This document shows, one piece after another, positions 23,597 to 32,378 of a stretch of DNA of 49,483 bases (position 1 is its first letter; every line of letters begins with the position of its first letter). Made by a program: the position numbers and the translations under genes. Source of the stretch: Nitrospinota bacterium. GTDB lineage: Bacteria > JADFOP01 > DATKYB01. The notes beneath the pieces are model-generated. The model worked only from the letters and a program-made list of their open reading frames with translations. It ran no database searches and was not told where the DNA came from. The stretch lies in assembly GCA_035528715.1 (NCBI GenBank), contig DATKYB010000043.1:1-49483 (forward strand), in the 5' to 3' direction.

Positions 23597-23629
23597 AAAA
23601 AGGTCATCGAAAGATGACCTTTTTATTTT
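23597..23629 (+). terminator. Rho-independent terminator
   Basis: Stem AAAAAGGTCATC / GATGACCTTTTT (12 base pairs) with a GAAA tetraloop, followed by ATTTT. It closes the 144-residue exported protein gene. Confidence 0.9.
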
Positions 23630-23783
23630 GCAAGAGATTATCAGGATGAGCTGCAAAAATCATTCTTATCTGCTTTTGTTTCATTTGATACCTAATAAAT
23701 TTTTATCTATACTTCATGCAAAAATTTGTATAAAATCATTTACCCTAACTGAGAAGGTAATATTGTTAAAAAAGGAGTTTATA

Positions 23784-24209
23784 ATGGCAGAGTTGGAATT
23801 CTATGTTGAGTTTTACGGGCATTGGAGAGAAAGCAAAAAAGAACTTATACCACCTCATTTTGGTGTTTTTTGTGTATATGATTGCTCATACCATCCTGAT
23901 AGTGATAGGGTTAAAATTGATAGGTTAATTTATATAGGCGAAGCAGAAAATGTAAGAGAGGGTATTAGTAATCATGAAAAATGGGATGAATGGAAGCAGA
24001 ATATAGGGGATGGAAAAGAACTATGTTTTTCTTTTGGCGCAGTAGATAAAAGTTTCCGCGAGCGTGTCCACGCTGCTTTTGTTTTTCAAAACAACCCACC
24101 ACTCAATGATAAATATAGAAATAGTTTTCCATTTGATAAAACAACGATAACAGCAAGAGGAGGCGTAGAGCTTCTGATAACCGACTTTTCTGTTGAAAGA
24201 ACTTCATAG
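23784..24209 (+). CDS. Divergent GIY-YIG-like small protein, 141 aa
   Basis: The start is ATG 23784, after AAAGGAG. An upstream extension of the frame has no ribosome site. The order of motifs matches the GIY-YIG nuclease fold: GVFCVYD (27-33) in the GIY position, LIYIGEAENV (48-57) in the YIG position, NHE at 63-65, then FVFQNNPPLN (99-108), which looks like the C-terminal PxLN end of the fold. The usual catalytic Arg four residues before the His is Gly60, and the usual metal-binding Glu seems to be His96. So it probably keeps the fold without normal nuclease activity. A related protein sits at 27414-27728. This is my own fold reading and could be wrong. No clear partner gene. Confidence 0.55.
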   Translation: MAELEFYVEFYGHWRESKKELIPPHFGVFCVYDCSYHPDSDRVKIDRLIYIGEAENVREGISNHEKWDEWKQNIGDGKELCFSFGAVDKSFRERVHAAFVFQNNPPLNDKYRNSFPFDKTTITARGGVELLITDFSVERTS

Positions 24210-26766: not shown

Positions 26767-27186
26767 TTATTGGGAAGAATTTTGTTCTTGATTGACACGC
26801 CGCTCACACTCATCCAACCATCTTTCTAATTCTTTAAGACTAAAGGGCTTTTTGAAAACCTTACATCCCAGAGTTTCTGCTTTTTTGATATCTTCTTCTG
26901 AAAAATTCCCTGACATGATGGCTGTATTTTCTTTGATTGCCTTGCAGCCCTTTTTTAATTGAAGCTCAAAGAAGTCTATACCTTTCATCCCGGGCATATG
27001 ATTATCAAATATACCTATGTCCCTACATCTTTCTTTACGGTTGCAGCATGAATCGTGGTTATGATAGAGAGGACATATAATCGGAGATTTGTAAAAACTA
27101 ACTTCATAACTCCTTTGTTTAAAAAGTTCCTTTAAGAAGTTTTGTATTCCTAATTCGTCTTCAAGAACGAGACATCTTATCTTCAT
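26767..27186 (-). CDS. Single-domain receiver with a Cys/His-rich insert
   Basis: Response-regulator receiver of 139 residues with no output domain. Conserved sites are E9-D10, phosphoacceptor D61 (IGIFDNHMPGMKG), S92 (AIMSGNF) and K113 (FKKPF). Between beta-2 and beta-3 lies an insert with C38, H42, H44, C47, C48 and C54 (ICPLYHNHDSCCNRKERC), well placed to bind a metal ion or form a disulphide. ATG 27186 follows GGAG and is better than TTG 27198. There is no kinase gene nearby. It may be a redox- or metal-responsive receiver, which is inference. Confidence 0.78.
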   Translation of the reverse strand: MKIRCLVLEDELGIQNFLKELFKQRSYEVSFYKSPIICPLYHNHDSCCNRKERCRDIGIFDNHMPGMKGIDFFELQLKKGCKAIKENTAIMSGNFSEEDIKKAETLGCKVFKKPFSLKELERWLDECERRVNQEQNSSQ

Positions 27187-27413
27187 TTTTTTCTCCAATG
27201 TTTGGATAGTTTTAAGACTTTTTATATCAATTCATAAGCAGAACAAACTTTTCTTAATCAAATTTTTTTTAATAATAATAGTAAGATAGAGACAAGACGA
27301 CAAATAAAGAAAATTTTTTGGAGCAATATTATTTTAAATATAGGTGAAGAGGAAAGATTTTATCCGTTGGCTCAAAAAGAACCAAAAGAGCTGAAAAGGA
27401 TTAAATTTCGTTT

Positions 27414-27728
27414 TTACTTCGGTCCACAGGGAACAAAAACATCACCATCACGAATCTCTTCTTCCATCTTTTTTCGACCTTCCTTATCAAGATTTGGGGT
27501 ATAGTAAACAGCAAATGTGATTATTCCCTCCTTAGAATTTTCTTTCCAGCATTCCAGCCTTTCGTGGTTTTGGGCGCTACTCTTTACCTTATCTGATTCA
27601 TCAACATCAATAATATAATACCCCCTGTGTTTGAGACAATATACAACAAAGAGACCTGGTTTGTCTTCCATTTGGTCTGGTGAACTTATGGGGCCATCAA
27701 ATCGATACTTCCCAACAGGAAACTTCAT
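27414..27728 (-). CDS. Small divergent GIY-YIG-like protein, 104 aa
   Basis: Function unknown. It resembles the protein at 23784: PGLFVVYC in the GIY position, GYYIIDVDESDKV in the YIG position, and NHERLECWKENS, to be compared with NHEKWDEWKQN there. The usual catalytic Arg is Ser here, and there is no clear metal-binding Glu. It is shorter, lacking the PxLN end. AGGAGGTTCTT before the ATG is a strong ribosome site. Minus-strand TTGATT and TATACT with a 16-base spacer upstream (about 27770-27800) could be its promoter. It probably belongs to the same unnamed subgroup as the 23784 gene. Confidence 0.55.
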   Translation of the reverse strand: MKFPVGKYRFDGPISSPDQMEDKPGLFVVYCLKHRGYYIIDVDESDKVKSSAQNHERLECWKENSKEGIITFAVYYTPNLDKEGRKKMEEEIRDGDVFVPCGPK

Positions 27729-27878: not shown

Positions 27879-28166
27879 CTATTTCTCCTCCTTTTTGAGC
27901 TCTTTTTCTATTTCACCCAGTCTCTTTTCAAGTTCGGCTTTTTCATCCTTTAGGATCTTTAGTTCATACTCAAGGTCTTCTTTTGTAGCTGATGGAGGAG
28001 GGACAGGACCAAAGCTGTATACATGGGAAGCATGGGCCATTCGACCAGTTGAATCTTGGAAAAAAGCATGGGGTCCAAACCCACATAGACAGGGCCCTAC
28101 ATAAGAATAGCCTGAAGGAACTGCTCTAGACCATCTATATCCTAAACCTCTTCCTCTGCCATACAT
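27879..28166 (-). CDS. DUF5320-like small protein
   Basis: Small protein with a Gly/Arg-rich N-terminus (MYGRGRGLGYRWSRAV), a middle with a Cys pair (GPCLCGFGPHAF), and a C-terminal coiled coil (EYELKILKDEKAELEKRLGE). This layout fits DUF5320 proteins, which are often found next to DUF134 regulators and NifX/NafY-like genes. Function unknown. AAAGGAGGTG is a perfect ribosome site. ATG 28166 sits nine bases after it and is better spaced than GTG 28172. It lies 75 bases downstream of the DUF134 gene, in one operon. Confidence 0.72.
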   Translation of the reverse strand: MYGRGRGLGYRWSRAVPSGYSYVGPCLCGFGPHAFFQDSTGRMAHASHVYSFGPVPPPSATKEDLEYELKILKDEKAELEKRLGEIEKELKKEEK

Positions 28167-28241
28167 ATTCACTCACCTCCTTTAGTTTAATATTTAGTTA
28201 TAAAAGACTAGATTTTGCGCTTAAATAGTCATATAAAAGTT

Positions 28242-28718
28242 TTATCTCCATGGAGGACCATGACCTCTTCTTGGGCCTCGGCCTCTCCCAAATCTCCAGC
28301 GGAAGGGTTGACCTTTTCTTATCATACGTATTGATGTATTTTTGCATTCAGGGCATTCTTGGGGGATATTATTTTTGGATTCCATAACCCATCTATTTTC
28401 GCAATCACGACAATAGAAGAACCCTTCAGACATGACATAATTACCGCCTTCGATCTTTAAAAGTTTTCCCTGAACAAGAGATTCTGCTATTTTTCTATGA
28501 GCCTCTTGCAGGATTCTTCCAAAGGTTTGCCTAGAAATCTTCATCATCTTTGCCGCCTCTTCCTGATAAAGACCTTCAAAGTCTGCCAGTCTTATAGCCT
28601 CAAATTCATCAACACTTAGAGTTAGATATTCTGTTTGAGAGATTCTTATACCTCCTGGTCTAAAAGAGGTTAAAATAGGTTTTCCCCATACAAATCTATT
28701 TTTTCTTGGACGTACCAT
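28242..28718 (-). CDS. DUF134 (UPF0251) DNA-binding regulator with C-terminal zinc ribbon
   Basis: Predicted transcription factor. The N-terminal DUF134 region (LTLSVDEFEAIRLADFEGLY, QEEAAKMMKISRQTFGRILQ) is a sigma-70 region 4-like helix-turn-helix. A two-CxxC zinc ribbon follows (FFYCRDCENRW, then ECPECKNTSIRMI), and the tail is Arg/Gly-rich (RWRFGRGRGPRRGHGPP). A ribosome site GAGAGGA precedes the ATG. It probably controls its own operon through the palindrome at 28736-28751, and perhaps the divergent alternative complex III operon. The ligand is unknown, with a metal or redox signal being plausible. Confidence 0.85.
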   Translation of the reverse strand: MVRPRKNRFVWGKPILTSFRPGGIRISQTEYLTLSVDEFEAIRLADFEGLYQEEAAKMMKISRQTFGRILQEAHRKIAESLVQGKLLKIEGGNYVMSEGFFYCRDCENRWVMESKNNIPQECPECKNTSIRMIRKGQPFRWRFGRGRGPRRGHGPPWR

Positions 28719-28735
28719 TGAATCCTCTCTTTATA

Positions 28736-28780
28736 ATGAGCATATGCTCATAATATATGACCAATGAATTTATTTGTCAA
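28736..28780 (-). promoter_or_regulatory. Promoter with palindromic operator for the DUF134-DUF5320 operon
   Basis: On the minus strand: perfect TTGACA (28775-28780), 17-base spacer and TATATT (28752-28757). Directly downstream of the -10 is the perfect 16-base palindrome ATGAGCATATGCTCAT (28736-28751), covering the expected transcription start. A protein bound there would block the promoter. DUF134 itself is the obvious candidate (inference). Confidence 0.7.
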
Positions 28781-28846: not shown

Positions 28847-28876
28847 TTGACAATAGTGTTTAGTAATTGGCATAAT
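28847..28876 (+). promoter_or_regulatory. Probable promoter of the alternative complex III operon
   Basis: Perfect TTGACA (28847-28852), 18-base spacer and CATAAT (28871-28876, five of six matches), 40 bases before actA. It is divergent from the DUF134 promoter, with 66 bases between the two -35 boxes. Confidence 0.6.
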
Positions 28877-28916: not shown

Positions 28917-29417
28917 ATGAAGCTATTTAAAAAGCCCCTTCTAATATTCTTATCAGGATGTGTGATTCTTTTTTTTGGTTCTGGCTTTTTAAAAAGTCCT
29001 TATGCTCCAGTCCAACCTATAGAATTCAGTCATAAGATACATGCTGGCAACTACGAGTTGGCCTGCTTATACTGCCATTCCTATGCAAATCGTTCCTCTT
29101 ATGCAGGTATCCCTTCAGTGCAGAGATGCATGGGTTGCCATAAGATTACAGCCCAGAATAAACCAGAGGTAAAAAAGATTCATGAATACTGGAACAAAAA
29201 AGAGCCTATTCCATGGGTAAGGGTATATAAGGTTCCTGATTTTGTTTACTTTACTCACAGAAGACACGTTAACAAGGGTATTAATTGCACAACTTGTCAC
29301 GGTGAAGTAGAAAAGATGGAGAAGATTCAAAAGGTTTCGTCATTGAAAATGGGCTGGTGTGTGAAATGCCATAAGGAAAATCAAGTAAGCAGGGACTGTC
29401 TTATCTGTCATAAATAA
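28917..29417 (+). CDS. actA: Alternative complex III subunit A, pentaheme cytochrome c
   Basis: Membrane-anchored multiheme cytochrome c of a quinol:acceptor oxidoreductase. An N-terminal helix (LLIFLSGCVILFFGSGFL) anchors it. Five CxxCH sites are visible: CLYCH, CMGCH, CTTCH, CVKCH and CLICH, matching the five-heme ActA type. The segment SHKIHAGNYELACLYCH is typical. It is the first gene of a six-gene run in the usual act order. ActA passes electrons within the complex on the periplasmic side. Confidence 0.9.
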   Translation: MKLFKKPLLIFLSGCVILFFGSGFLKSPYAPVQPIEFSHKIHAGNYELACLYCHSYANRSSYAGIPSVQRCMGCHKITAQNKPEVKKIHEYWNKKEPIPWVRVYKVPDFVYFTHRRHVNKGINCTTCHGEVEKMEKIQKVSSLKMGWCVKCHKENQVSRDCLICHK

Positions 29418-29429
29418 AATGGGGGTTTT

Positions 29430-32378
29430 GTGAGGTTCTCTTTAAACAGAAGAAATTTTTTGAAAATGCTCGGTTTTGGAAGTGCTTCGACAGCTTTGAG
29501 TGGTTGCAGTTCTGAACCGATTGATAAGATTATTCCTTACTTGATCCCCCCAGAAGAGTCGGTCCCAGGGGTTGCTGATTGGTATGCTACTGTTTGCAGA
29601 GAATGTCCTTCAGGATGCGGTCTTCTTGCGAAGCTGAGAGAAGGGAGACCTATAAAGGTTGAAGGAAATCCTCATCATCCTGTGAACAGAGGTGGTTTGT
29701 GTATGCGAGGGCAGGCATCCTTACAAAGCCTCTTCAATCCTGATCGTATTAGAACACCCATGATAAAAAGAGAGAGTGGTGATTTTCAAACAATATCCTG
29801 GAAGGATGCTGAAAAAGAGATATTAGATATTTTAAAGACTAAAATAGATCAGCAAAAAACTGATGAAATAGCTGTGATAACCCCTCTCATTACAGGTAGC
29901 CTTGAGAGGCTTCTAAAAAAATGGATGGATGCCTTTCATATTAAAAACCATCTGATTCATGAGCCCATTTCATATGAGGATATTAAAGAAGCCAATAGGA
30001 TTGTTTTTTCAAAGGCCGAAATACCCCTTTACTCAATTGAAGAGTCAGAAATGATTCTCTCGTTTGGAGCTGATTTTCTTGAGACATGGATTTCTCCGGT
30101 AGAGTATTCAAAGGCCTTTGGAAATATGAAACGAGCGGATATGAAGAGACAATTTATCTATATCGGACAGAGAATGTCACTTACCGCTGCTAATGCTGAT
30201 GAGTGGATAAGTCTCAAGCCCGGTACAGAGAAAGCTCTTATTTTGGGTCTTATTCATTTTATTTTGAAAGAAAAACTGCATGCTGATCTTCCTTTTCTTG
30301 AGCGAGAGGTGATTAAAGAGCTCGTAAAAGATTTCTCATTGGATAGGGTTTCTTCTTATACGGGAGTCTCCCAGCAAACCATAGAAAGAATAGGAAAAGA
30401 GTTTTCTAAAGCAAATCCTGGACTGGCTTTAGGCGGTGGGATAGCTGTAAAAGGGCTTTATGCCACAGATATCTCAGTGGCTGTAAATCTCCTAAATTAT
30501 ATATGTGGGAATATTGGAAGAACAGTTCGTTTCGGCCATGAAATCGGTATTGGCAGGGTTAATCCATACAGAGATATGCTAAGATTAATTGAATCCATAG
30601 AGCAATCGAGACTAAAGGTCATTCTTCTGTATAATGTTAATCTTGTGTATAACCTTCCTGATTCTTCAGGTTTTCAAGAGGCTATAAAACGGATTCCTCA
30701 TGTCATCTCCATTTCTCAGTTCATGGATGATACAGCAAAAGAGGCAAATCTTATTATTCCATCTTCTATGTCCTTTGAAGAATGGGGTGATTATATGCCC
30801 AGGAAAGGGGTTTTTGGGCTTCAACAGCCAGTGATAAAACCACTTTTCGAATCAAGGGGTTTTGGGGATATTCTTCTAAGCCTTGTTAGATCAATTGATG
30901 AAAAACAAAAAGGACAAATCCCATGGAACAATTTTCATGATTATCTCAAAGACTCCTGGAAAGGAATTCACAAAGACTTATCTCCAGAAATTGGATTTGA
31001 CCATTTTTGGGAAGGGAGTCTCAGGAGGGGAGGGGTCTTTAGGGCTGAAACCGACAAAGAGGTCAAGCTCTCAACCAAAGTATCTTTGGATTCTAAGATA
31101 GATTTGAAAGATAAAGAGGATGAAAAATCCTCTACCCTTCTTCTCTATCCTTCCATTAAATATTTTGATGGCAGAGGAGCAAACAAGCCTCTGCTTCAGG
31201 AGATTTCTGATCCCCTTTCCAAGATTGCCTGGGATACATATTTGGAGATGAACCCAGAGACAGCTGTTGCTCTAAAGGTTCTGGAGGGAGATTTTGTATC
31301 TGTTGAGTCAAAGGATGGAAGGATGGAACTCCCCGTTCACATTTATGAAGGGATAAGAAAGGATGTTGTGGCCGTTCCTCTTGGATTAGGTCATATAGAA
31401 TATGGAAGATATGCAAAGCAAAGAGGGGTAAATCCCGTTAAGCTTTTGTCAAAGAAGACAGAAGAAATTTCCGGAGGAGTGATATGGTCGCCTATACTTG
31501 TCAAGATAGAAAGAATTAATAAGAAAAAATCATTGGCATCAACGCAGGGAGGCCGAAGGCAGTTTGGGAGAAGGATAGCTCAGGCACTCTTTTTTAGCAT
31601 TGGAAAAGGAATTCTCCACCTCAAGGGAGAAAAAGATATTAAAAAAGAAAAAAAGAGGGATCTCTATAAAGCTCATCCTTACAAGGATCACAAGTGGGGT
31701 ATGGTGATTGATCTCAATGCCTGTATTGGTTGCAATGCCTGTGTTGCTGCTTGCTATATGGAAAATAATATTGGTATTGTAGGAGAGAGGGAAGTGATAC
31801 GAGGGAGGGAAATGGAATGGATAAGGATAGAAAAATATGTTGAAAATAGGGGAGATGAGCTTGATGTAAGATTTGTACCGATGTTATGCCAGCATTGTGA
31901 AAATGCACCTTGCGAACCAGTTTGCCCGGTTTATGCGGCATATCACAATCCTGAAGGTTTGAATGCCCAGATATACAACCGCTGCGTTGGCACGCGTTAC
32001 TGCTCTAATAACTGCCCCTACAAGGTTCGAAGGTTTAACTGGTTTTCCCATTCATGGCCAAAACCTCTTAATTGGCAGTTAAATCCTGATGTAACAGTAA
32101 GGGAGGTAGGGGTTATGGAGAAATGCACCTTTTGCATACAGAGGATAAGAGAAAAGAAAGAAGTTGCAAAAGAAGAGGGAAGAAGGCTCAGAGATGGAGA
32201 GATCATACCAGCCTGCGCACAGACATGTCCCACAGAAGCCATTATATTTGGAGACCTGAAAGACCCAAAGAGCAGGGTTTCCAAACTTTGGAATAGCCAA
32301 AGAGGCTACAGGGTTCTTGAAGAAATTAATACAAAGCCTTCTGTGGTTTATCTGAAGAAGATAAAACGAGAGATTTAG
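29430..32378 (+). CDS. actB: Alternative complex III subunit B (fused molybdopterin-like and iron-sulphur domains)
   Basis: Large periplasmic subunit. It starts at GTG with a twin-arginine signal (NRRNFLKMLGFG). The first 700 residues are the molybdopterin-oxidoreductase-like B1 domain, which begins CRECPSGCGLLAKLREGRPI and has a fourth Cys at GGLCMRGQAS. The C-terminal B2 domain (about 750-980) has ferredoxin-type motifs: IGCNACVAACYMEN, CQHCENAPCEPVCPV, CVGTRYCSNNCPYKV, CTFCIQR and CAQTCPTEA. Studied ActB proteins carry no molybdenum cofactor, so this should move electrons rather than catalyse. The retained N-terminal Cys set could bind an extra cluster. A length of 982 is normal for the fused form. 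It lies 12 bases after actA and 2 bases before actC. Confidence 0.92.
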   Translation: MRFSLNRRNFLKMLGFGSASTALSGCSSEPIDKIIPYLIPPEESVPGVADWYATVCRECPSGCGLLAKLREGRPIKVEGNPHHPVNRGGLCMRGQASLQSLFNPDRIRTPMIKRESGDFQTISWKDAEKEILDILKTKIDQQKTDEIAVITPLITGSLERLLKKWMDAFHIKNHLIHEPISYEDIKEANRIVFSKAEIPLYSIEESEMILSFGADFLETWISPVEYSKAFGNMKRADMKRQFIYIGQRMSLTAANADEWISLKPGTEKALILGLIHFILKEKLHADLPFLEREVIKELVKDFSLDRVSSYTGVSQQTIERIGKEFSKANPGLALGGGIAVKGLYATDISVAVNLLNYICGNIGRTVRFGHEIGIGRVNPYRDMLRLIESIEQSRLKVILLYNVNLVYNLPDSSGFQEAIKRIPHVISISQFMDDTAKEANLIIPSSMSFEEWGDYMPRKGVFGLQQPVIKPLFESRGFGDILLSLVRSIDEKQKGQIPWNNFHDYLKDSWKGIHKDLSPEIGFDHFWEGSLRRGGVFRAETDKEVKLSTKVSLDSKIDLKDKEDEKSSTLLLYPSIKYFDGRGANKPLLQEISDPLSKIAWDTYLEMNPETAVALKVLEGDFVSVESKDGRMELPVHIYEGIRKDVVAVPLGLGHIEYGRYAKQRGVNPVKLLSKKTEEISGGVIWSPILVKIERINKKKSLASTQGGRRQFGRRIAQALFFSIGKGILHLKGEKDIKKEKKRDLYKAHPYKDHKWGMVIDLNACIGCNACVAACYMENNIGIVGEREVIRGREMEWIRIEKYVENRGDELDVRFVPMLCQHCENAPCEPVCPVYAAYHNPEGLNAQIYNRCVGTRYCSNNCPYKVRRFNWFSHSWPKPLNWQLNPDVTVREVGVMEKCTFCIQRIREKKEVAKEEGRRLRDGEIIPACAQTCPTEAIIFGDLKDPKSRVSKLWNSQRGYRVLEEINTKPSVVYLKKIKREI

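Follow-up and report, generated by a model that had tools for sequence, protein, structure and literature searches.

The palindrome lying on the promoter of the DUF134 gene is, with a probability that we put at about 0.88, the operator of the adjacent DUF134 protein, which would bind it as a dimer and most likely represses its own promoter together with DUF5320. We analyzed a stretch of 49,483 nucleotides from a Nitrospinota bacterium, here called the window. In the proposed mechanism, each subunit of the dimer would place one sigma-region-4-like helix-turn-helix on a 10-base half-site, TTATGAGCAT, where Arg68 would read G(-6), residue 67 would set G or A at -4 and residue 64 may influence -5. 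Bound in this way, the protein would cover the expected start site (elsewhere the spacer between the -35 and -10 hexamers) and RNA polymerase would be blocked, repressing both the DUF134 promoter and the downstream DUF5320 gene.

The 16-base palindrome ATGAGCATATGCTCAT, read from the sequence, starts directly after the -10 hexamer of the DUF134 promoter, the two hexamers of which are separated by a 17-base spacer and match the sigma-70-type consensus at 11 of 12 positions. The sequence confirms the initial annotation, which had placed a palindrome directly after the -10 of a near-consensus promoter. A start site 6–8 bases past the -10 hexamer would sit near the palindrome centre. The encoded protein belongs to the DUF134 family (PF02001, 89.2 bits against a gathering cut-off of 27, residues 2–95), and DUF5320 begins 69 bases downstream on the same strand.

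Table 1. Features of the DUF134 promoter and operon (window coordinates).
Feature	Position	Strand	Basis
Palindromic operator (predicted), ATGAGCATATGCTCAT	28736..28751	.	motif search, conservation at DUF134 genes
Window copy of the 20-base family consensus TTATKRRCATATGYYMATAA, 19/20	28734-28753	.	consensus scan
-35 hexamer TTGACA of the DUF134 promoter	28775..28780	-	promoter scan
-10 hexamer TATATT, abutting the palindrome	28752..28757	-	promoter scan
Shine-Dalgarno-like AGAGAGG	28724..28730	-	read from sequence
DUF134 gene (ATG at 28718, end at 28242); protein of 158 aa, sigma-region-4-like helix-turn-helix and C-terminal zinc-ribbon-like segment	28242..28718	-	Pfam PF02001, AF2 model, fold comparison
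Codons of recognition-helix residues 62–68, SRQTFGR; residues 64, 67 and 68 co-vary with operator bases	28515..28535	-	co-variation, AF2 model
DUF5320 gene (GTG at 28172), probable second operon gene	27879..28172	-	PF17253, 27.7 bits against a cut-off of 27

Side observations concern other genes of the window. A receiver-domain-like protein (26767-27198, minus strand; PF00072, 25.3 bits, under the 30.2 cut-off) is unusually rich in Cys and His (CPLYHNHDSCCNRKERC) close to where phosphorylation would be expected. Two small proteins, at 23628-24209 (plus strand) and 27414-27728 (minus strand), look alike by eye; the second has no Pfam match, and the first, as we take it, recalls GIY-YIG domains.

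The symmetry of a 16-base palindrome proves little alone, because five perfect ones occur within this one window, where ATGAGCATATGCTCAT is the sole match allowing up to three mismatches (0.34 expected). What is beyond chance is the recurrence of the same palindrome at DUF134 genes. In the window's own genome (1.99 Mb, 152 contigs, 96.9% complete), DUF134 occurs three times, each gene with a palindrome directly upstream at its promoter, two of them exact and one reading ATGAACATATGTTCAT, with two paired changes; a genome-wide search allowing up to three mismatches returned eleven places, the best three being the three DUF134 promoters. In a first set of 66 genes, drawn from 49 loci found with the window protein together with genes from relatives and the own genome (including L075, which duplicates L038), 47 match the consensus TTATKRRCATATGYYMATAA at 17/20 or better near their start, compared with 3 matches at this threshold elsewhere in these loci (267,835 bases). 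According to record titles, this set covers Chlorobium, Spirochaetes, Desulfovibrionales, Desulfobacterales, Omnitrophota, Nautiliaceae and Bacteroidetes, with Clostridia, Spirochaetota and Enterobacterales plasmids as further groups.

The consensus was derived from the first set and frozen before it was applied to held-out genes, taken from a search of 386 genomes. At least 17/20 was reached by 25 of the 55 held-out genes, but by only one of 947 background windows of 210 bases. Among the 30 held-out genes below this value, some carry clear variants (GTGCATATGCAC, TGAACCATAGTTCA) and some show no operator variant by inspection. Repeats of the loci of the window's genome (L001–L003, L083, L084), identical proteins (L075, L095) and loci to which the start rule assigned no start (L020, L024, L058, the second frame of L085, L126, L132) were left out of this test; L020 and L024 have good sites in the first set. 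A contig-edge place above threshold (G298:C104) and places below the Pfam cut-off were not counted as DUF134 genes. Plasmids behave alike, with 9 of 11 examined records passing 17/20 (11 of 30 listed, from 189 plasmid records with a match), and among the genome-wide matches listed, 15 of the 17 sites with at most one mismatch stand beside DUF134. In viral contigs, there were 16 pattern matches and no relative. DUF134 genes without the palindrome are often internal to operons: of the 38 whose best score is below 16, 17 have a co-directional gene no more than 60 bases upstream, against 4 of 80 genes with a site. The family itself scores above cut-off in 67 of the 386 sampled bacterial genomes and, in the control, registers in M. 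jannaschii and M. acetivorans.

A conserved palindrome at the gene's own promoter, the mark of an autoregulatory operator, is found in the own genome, the first set, the held-out genes and the plasmids. The initial annotation had named the site a candidate DUF134 operator and had pointed to other DUF134 promoters, and to the rest of this genome, as the places to search for it; since DUF134 homologues have the conserved palindrome beside them, the point on which the proposal had been staked beforehand, the operator reading survives. A chance palindrome is ruled out by the recurrence in first-set and held-out genes relative to background. The wider proposition, that the palindrome functions at the RNA level or arose by chance as an inverted repeat in an AT-rich leader, is scarcely credible: the abundance of perfect palindromes in the window would fit it, and the start site may place part of the palindrome in the transcript, but what recurs is a family-specific sequence beyond symmetry, sites of the spacer class (see below) fall outside the transcript, and the palindrome tracks residues of the protein.

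This last relationship was analyzed by numbering the half-site TTATGAGCAT from the centre, -10 to -1, and the residues as in the window protein (S62 R63 Q64 T65 F66 G67 R68), using sites picked blind to positions -6 to -4 in 79 of 118 genes. All 28 half-sites of Asn68 proteins have T(-6), and 104 of the 126 of Arg68 proteins have G(-6); Gly67 goes with G(-4) in 107 of 110, Thr67 with A in 12 of 12 and Ser67 with A in 15 of 22, and Gly64 with T(-5) in 9 of 12. An unsupervised scan of residues 6–95 against all ten bases ranked residue 68 with -6 first and placed residues 64 and 67 paired with -4, and residue 64 paired with -5, near the top; a few low-information pairs, such as L44 with -9, and certain residues beyond the helix, such as V10 with -5, also scored high. 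Among held-out genes, 29 of 31 obey the residue-68 rule, where 2000 permutations gave a mean of 22.4 and at most 28; for residue 67, the count is 22 of 26, where permutation gave a mean of 12.9 and at most 20. L090, L102, L114, L119 and L142 break a rule, and L092/L093 have mixed half-sites. Collapsing the genes to 36 clusters (60 shared positions) gave Fisher p values of 1e-5 and 8e-5. On a tree built without the helix residues, we counted 5 changes at residue 68 and 5 at base -6, and 7 at residue 67 and 8 at base -4; the best tree has 5 independent pairs for residue 68 and 7 for residue 67. The co-variation is partly phylogenetic, and the tree test alone is weak, because well-supported branches hold only one independent pair per trait.

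Considering that the operator bases co-vary with the recognition helix, together with the parallel in DeoR described below, DUF134 itself very probably binds the site. That another transcription factor binds the palindrome, with DUF134 merely its target, is highly improbable: a common regulator would likewise give recurrence at DUF134 promoters, but the operator bases change with the recognition helix of the DUF134 protein encoded alongside, even between paralogues of one genome (in the own genome, two SRQTFGR proteins have GAGC operators and an SRPTFTR protein has GAAC), and the sites accompany DUF134 genes across many bacterial groups. Two further observations concern the helix. L102 (G286:C3; site TTATGGGTATATACTCATAA) has Gln for the near-invariant Arg63 and T for C at -3, possibly a further residue-base pair, seen in one case. 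For proteins lacking Arg68 (L179, L181, L182, L186, L115), the sites are of the TTGACATATGTCAA type, with the -35 hexamer lying inside them.

In the AlphaFold model of the window protein (mean pLDDT 80), helices span residues 36–47, 52–59 and 63–83, the last being the recognition helix, and are followed by strands with a CxxC...CxxC zinc-ribbon-like segment; this motif occurs past residue 88 in 48 of 118 DUF134 proteins. Fold comparison returned, with modest scores, sigma region 4 domains (including sigma-E on -35 DNA) and the DeoR DNA-binding domain. Sequence comparison gave no solved relative at E ≤0.001, and the fold searches gave no match at E ≤0.001 (Foldseek) or Z ≥8 (VIA-align); the likeness to sigma region 4 suggested by the model is a modest one over a small domain. 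In Pfam, the sigma region 4 profiles stay below cut-off (Sigma70_r4_2, 20.6 against 25.7 bits; Sigma70_r4, 19.9 against 24.1) and region 2, which recognizes the -10 element, has no match, on which grounds we rejected classification as a sigma-70 family factor. Membership of the SorC/DeoR family was likewise rejected, the protein having 158 aa and no Pfam match to the C-terminal sugar-binding effector domain of about 250 residues.

The sign of control is suggested by where the sites lie. Of 80 sites scoring at least 16, 69 have a TTGACA-like hexamer no more than 60 bases upstream, compared with 382 of 1600 random points; the site centre falls 9–13 bases past TTGACA, in the -35/-10 spacer, in 27 of the 80, and 29–38 bases past it, at the start site, in 30, the window included. 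Autorepression is the best reading because both positions should exclude polymerase. MerR proteins activate by distorting the -35/-10 spacer. It is unlikely that DUF134 binds and activates in this manner: the spacer class would suit it, but in the start-site class a bound dimer should block transcription, and the DUF134 fold is sigma-region-4-like. Tandem operator-like palindromes, which suggest cooperative binding, stand upstream of DUF134 in L052–L054, L085, L116, L117, L181, L183 and L184.

The initial annotation had also considered that the divergent act promoter could be co-controlled. The act/Qrc-type operon is a divergent neighbour (act start at 28917), but its promoter (28847-28876, plus strand) begins 95 bases beyond the palindrome and the window has no second site above 16/20. 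For want of a nearby site, control of this operon is not supported, and such a role of the palindrome is very unlikely. One long frame (29430-32378, plus strand) matches both QrcB (residues 47–696) and QrcC (756–977), each below its cut-off; it is predicted from these matches to be a fused Act/Qrc-type subunit, beside a multihaem cytochrome.

The genes around DUF134 point to what it may control besides itself. In 118 DUF134 loci, NifX-like genes (PF02579) occur in 73, Mrp-like genes in 32, DUF5320 in 20 and any of these in 86, as counted with a home-made profile that overlooked the window's own DUF5320, found by Pfam. Among the matches listed at two mismatches or fewer, 55 sites in 40 genomes are away from DUF134; all 55 were examined, and 31 lie inside reading frames and 24 between genes. 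Of the latter, 6 are located within 250 bases before a NifX (3), Mrp (2) or DUF5320 (1) gene, while these genomes contain only 33 NifX genes, in 16 genomes. In one genome whose DUF134 proteins are of the N68 type (G120), N68-type sites precede a YibE/F permease, DUF5320, and a Cys/Met enzyme that has a DUF364 heavy-metal chelation gene behind it. Fusions of DUF134 with NifX make up 3 of 118 DUF134 proteins, and four more are plasmid-borne. The extra sites and the fusions point to a regulon of metal-cluster carriers. For the own genome, a wider regulon was rejected: the three remaining matches listed at two mismatches or fewer to the degenerate 20-mer (L214–L216) all fall inside reading frames, and nothing in the NifX/Mrp cluster of contig C95 scores above 15/20. 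Conjugative Klebsiella and Citrobacter plasmids (e.g. L183, L184) carry DUF134-NifX pairs, in L184 with PaaI thioesterase and Dps genes alongside, a puzzling cargo.

Because the sites precede NifX, Mrp, DUF5320 and metal genes and DUF134-NifX fusions exist, it is plausible that DUF134 responds to a metal or iron-sulfur cluster, perhaps to its state when held by the NifX-like or Mrp partners. A broader picture, which we offer as speculative and on balance doubtful, is that DUF134 proteins would be stand-alone sigma-region-4-like repressors with a residue-base code, running a NifX/Mrp/DUF5320 metal-cluster carrier regulon and sensing cluster status via a NifX-like partner (fused in some genomes), and that the subclass without Arg68 would read its TTGACATATGTCAA palindrome, -35 hexamer included, as if still reading a -35 element.

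An autoregulatory palindromic operator is of a known kind; what is new is the family, for which no DNA target was found described, and the residue-base code. No description of a DUF134 operator or DNA target was found in the literature searched, the scope of which stopped short of subscription journals and regulon databases, and the parts available of papers naming DUF134 or DUF5320 (among those found, PMC4608573 and PMC5886521) contain nothing on an operator. With an operator common to the family and a specificity that can be predicted, a domain of unknown function becomes a transcription factor open to testing; the code predicts which DUF134 protein binds which site, and the operator gives access to how NifX-like, Mrp and DUF5320 proteins are regulated. 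The Klebsiella and Citrobacter plasmid copies make tests in E. coli practical.

Three known systems come closest. The Orange protein (ORP) complex and MrpORP of Desulfovibrio are of the same type as the NifX-like and Mrp proteins that adjoin DUF134 and have sites in trans; in the part of the source available (PMC6345978), the D. vulgaris orp operons are controlled by sigma-54 with DVU2106 and IHF, not by a described DUF134. Region 4 of ECF sigma factors on the -35 element has its helix-turn-helix fold in common with DUF134, E. coli sigma-E (2h27) superposing by Foldseek at 0.9 Å over 51 columns; DUF134, however, lacks a region 2 match and is below the Pfam region-4 cut-offs, and its site is palindromic whereas that of sigma-E is single. 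In our own alignment, we take DUF134 residues 67 and 68 to lie opposite R171 and S172. These two sigma-E residues contact bases, as given in the accessible text of PMC6713349. The third system is B. subtilis DeoR of the SorC family (PDB 7bhy), which differs in having a sugar-phosphate effector domain, for which window DUF134 has no Pfam match, and in binding as a tetramer to a two-part operator, compared with the one palindrome of the window. Its helix, SRPTVSR, matches the SRPTFSR class of DUF134, and its half-site TTGAACA (PMC11229326, in part) matches the TTATGAACAT / TTGAACAT class, with the arginine at the end of the motif meeting the same G. R34 and R39 of DeoR would, by their spacing, be the two arginines of this motif; R39 contacts G4 in the 3.7 Å structure, a resolution at which the authors call such contacts uncertain (PMC11229326), and by analogy this arginine–guanine contact would be the equivalent of the DUF134 pair Arg68 and G(-6).
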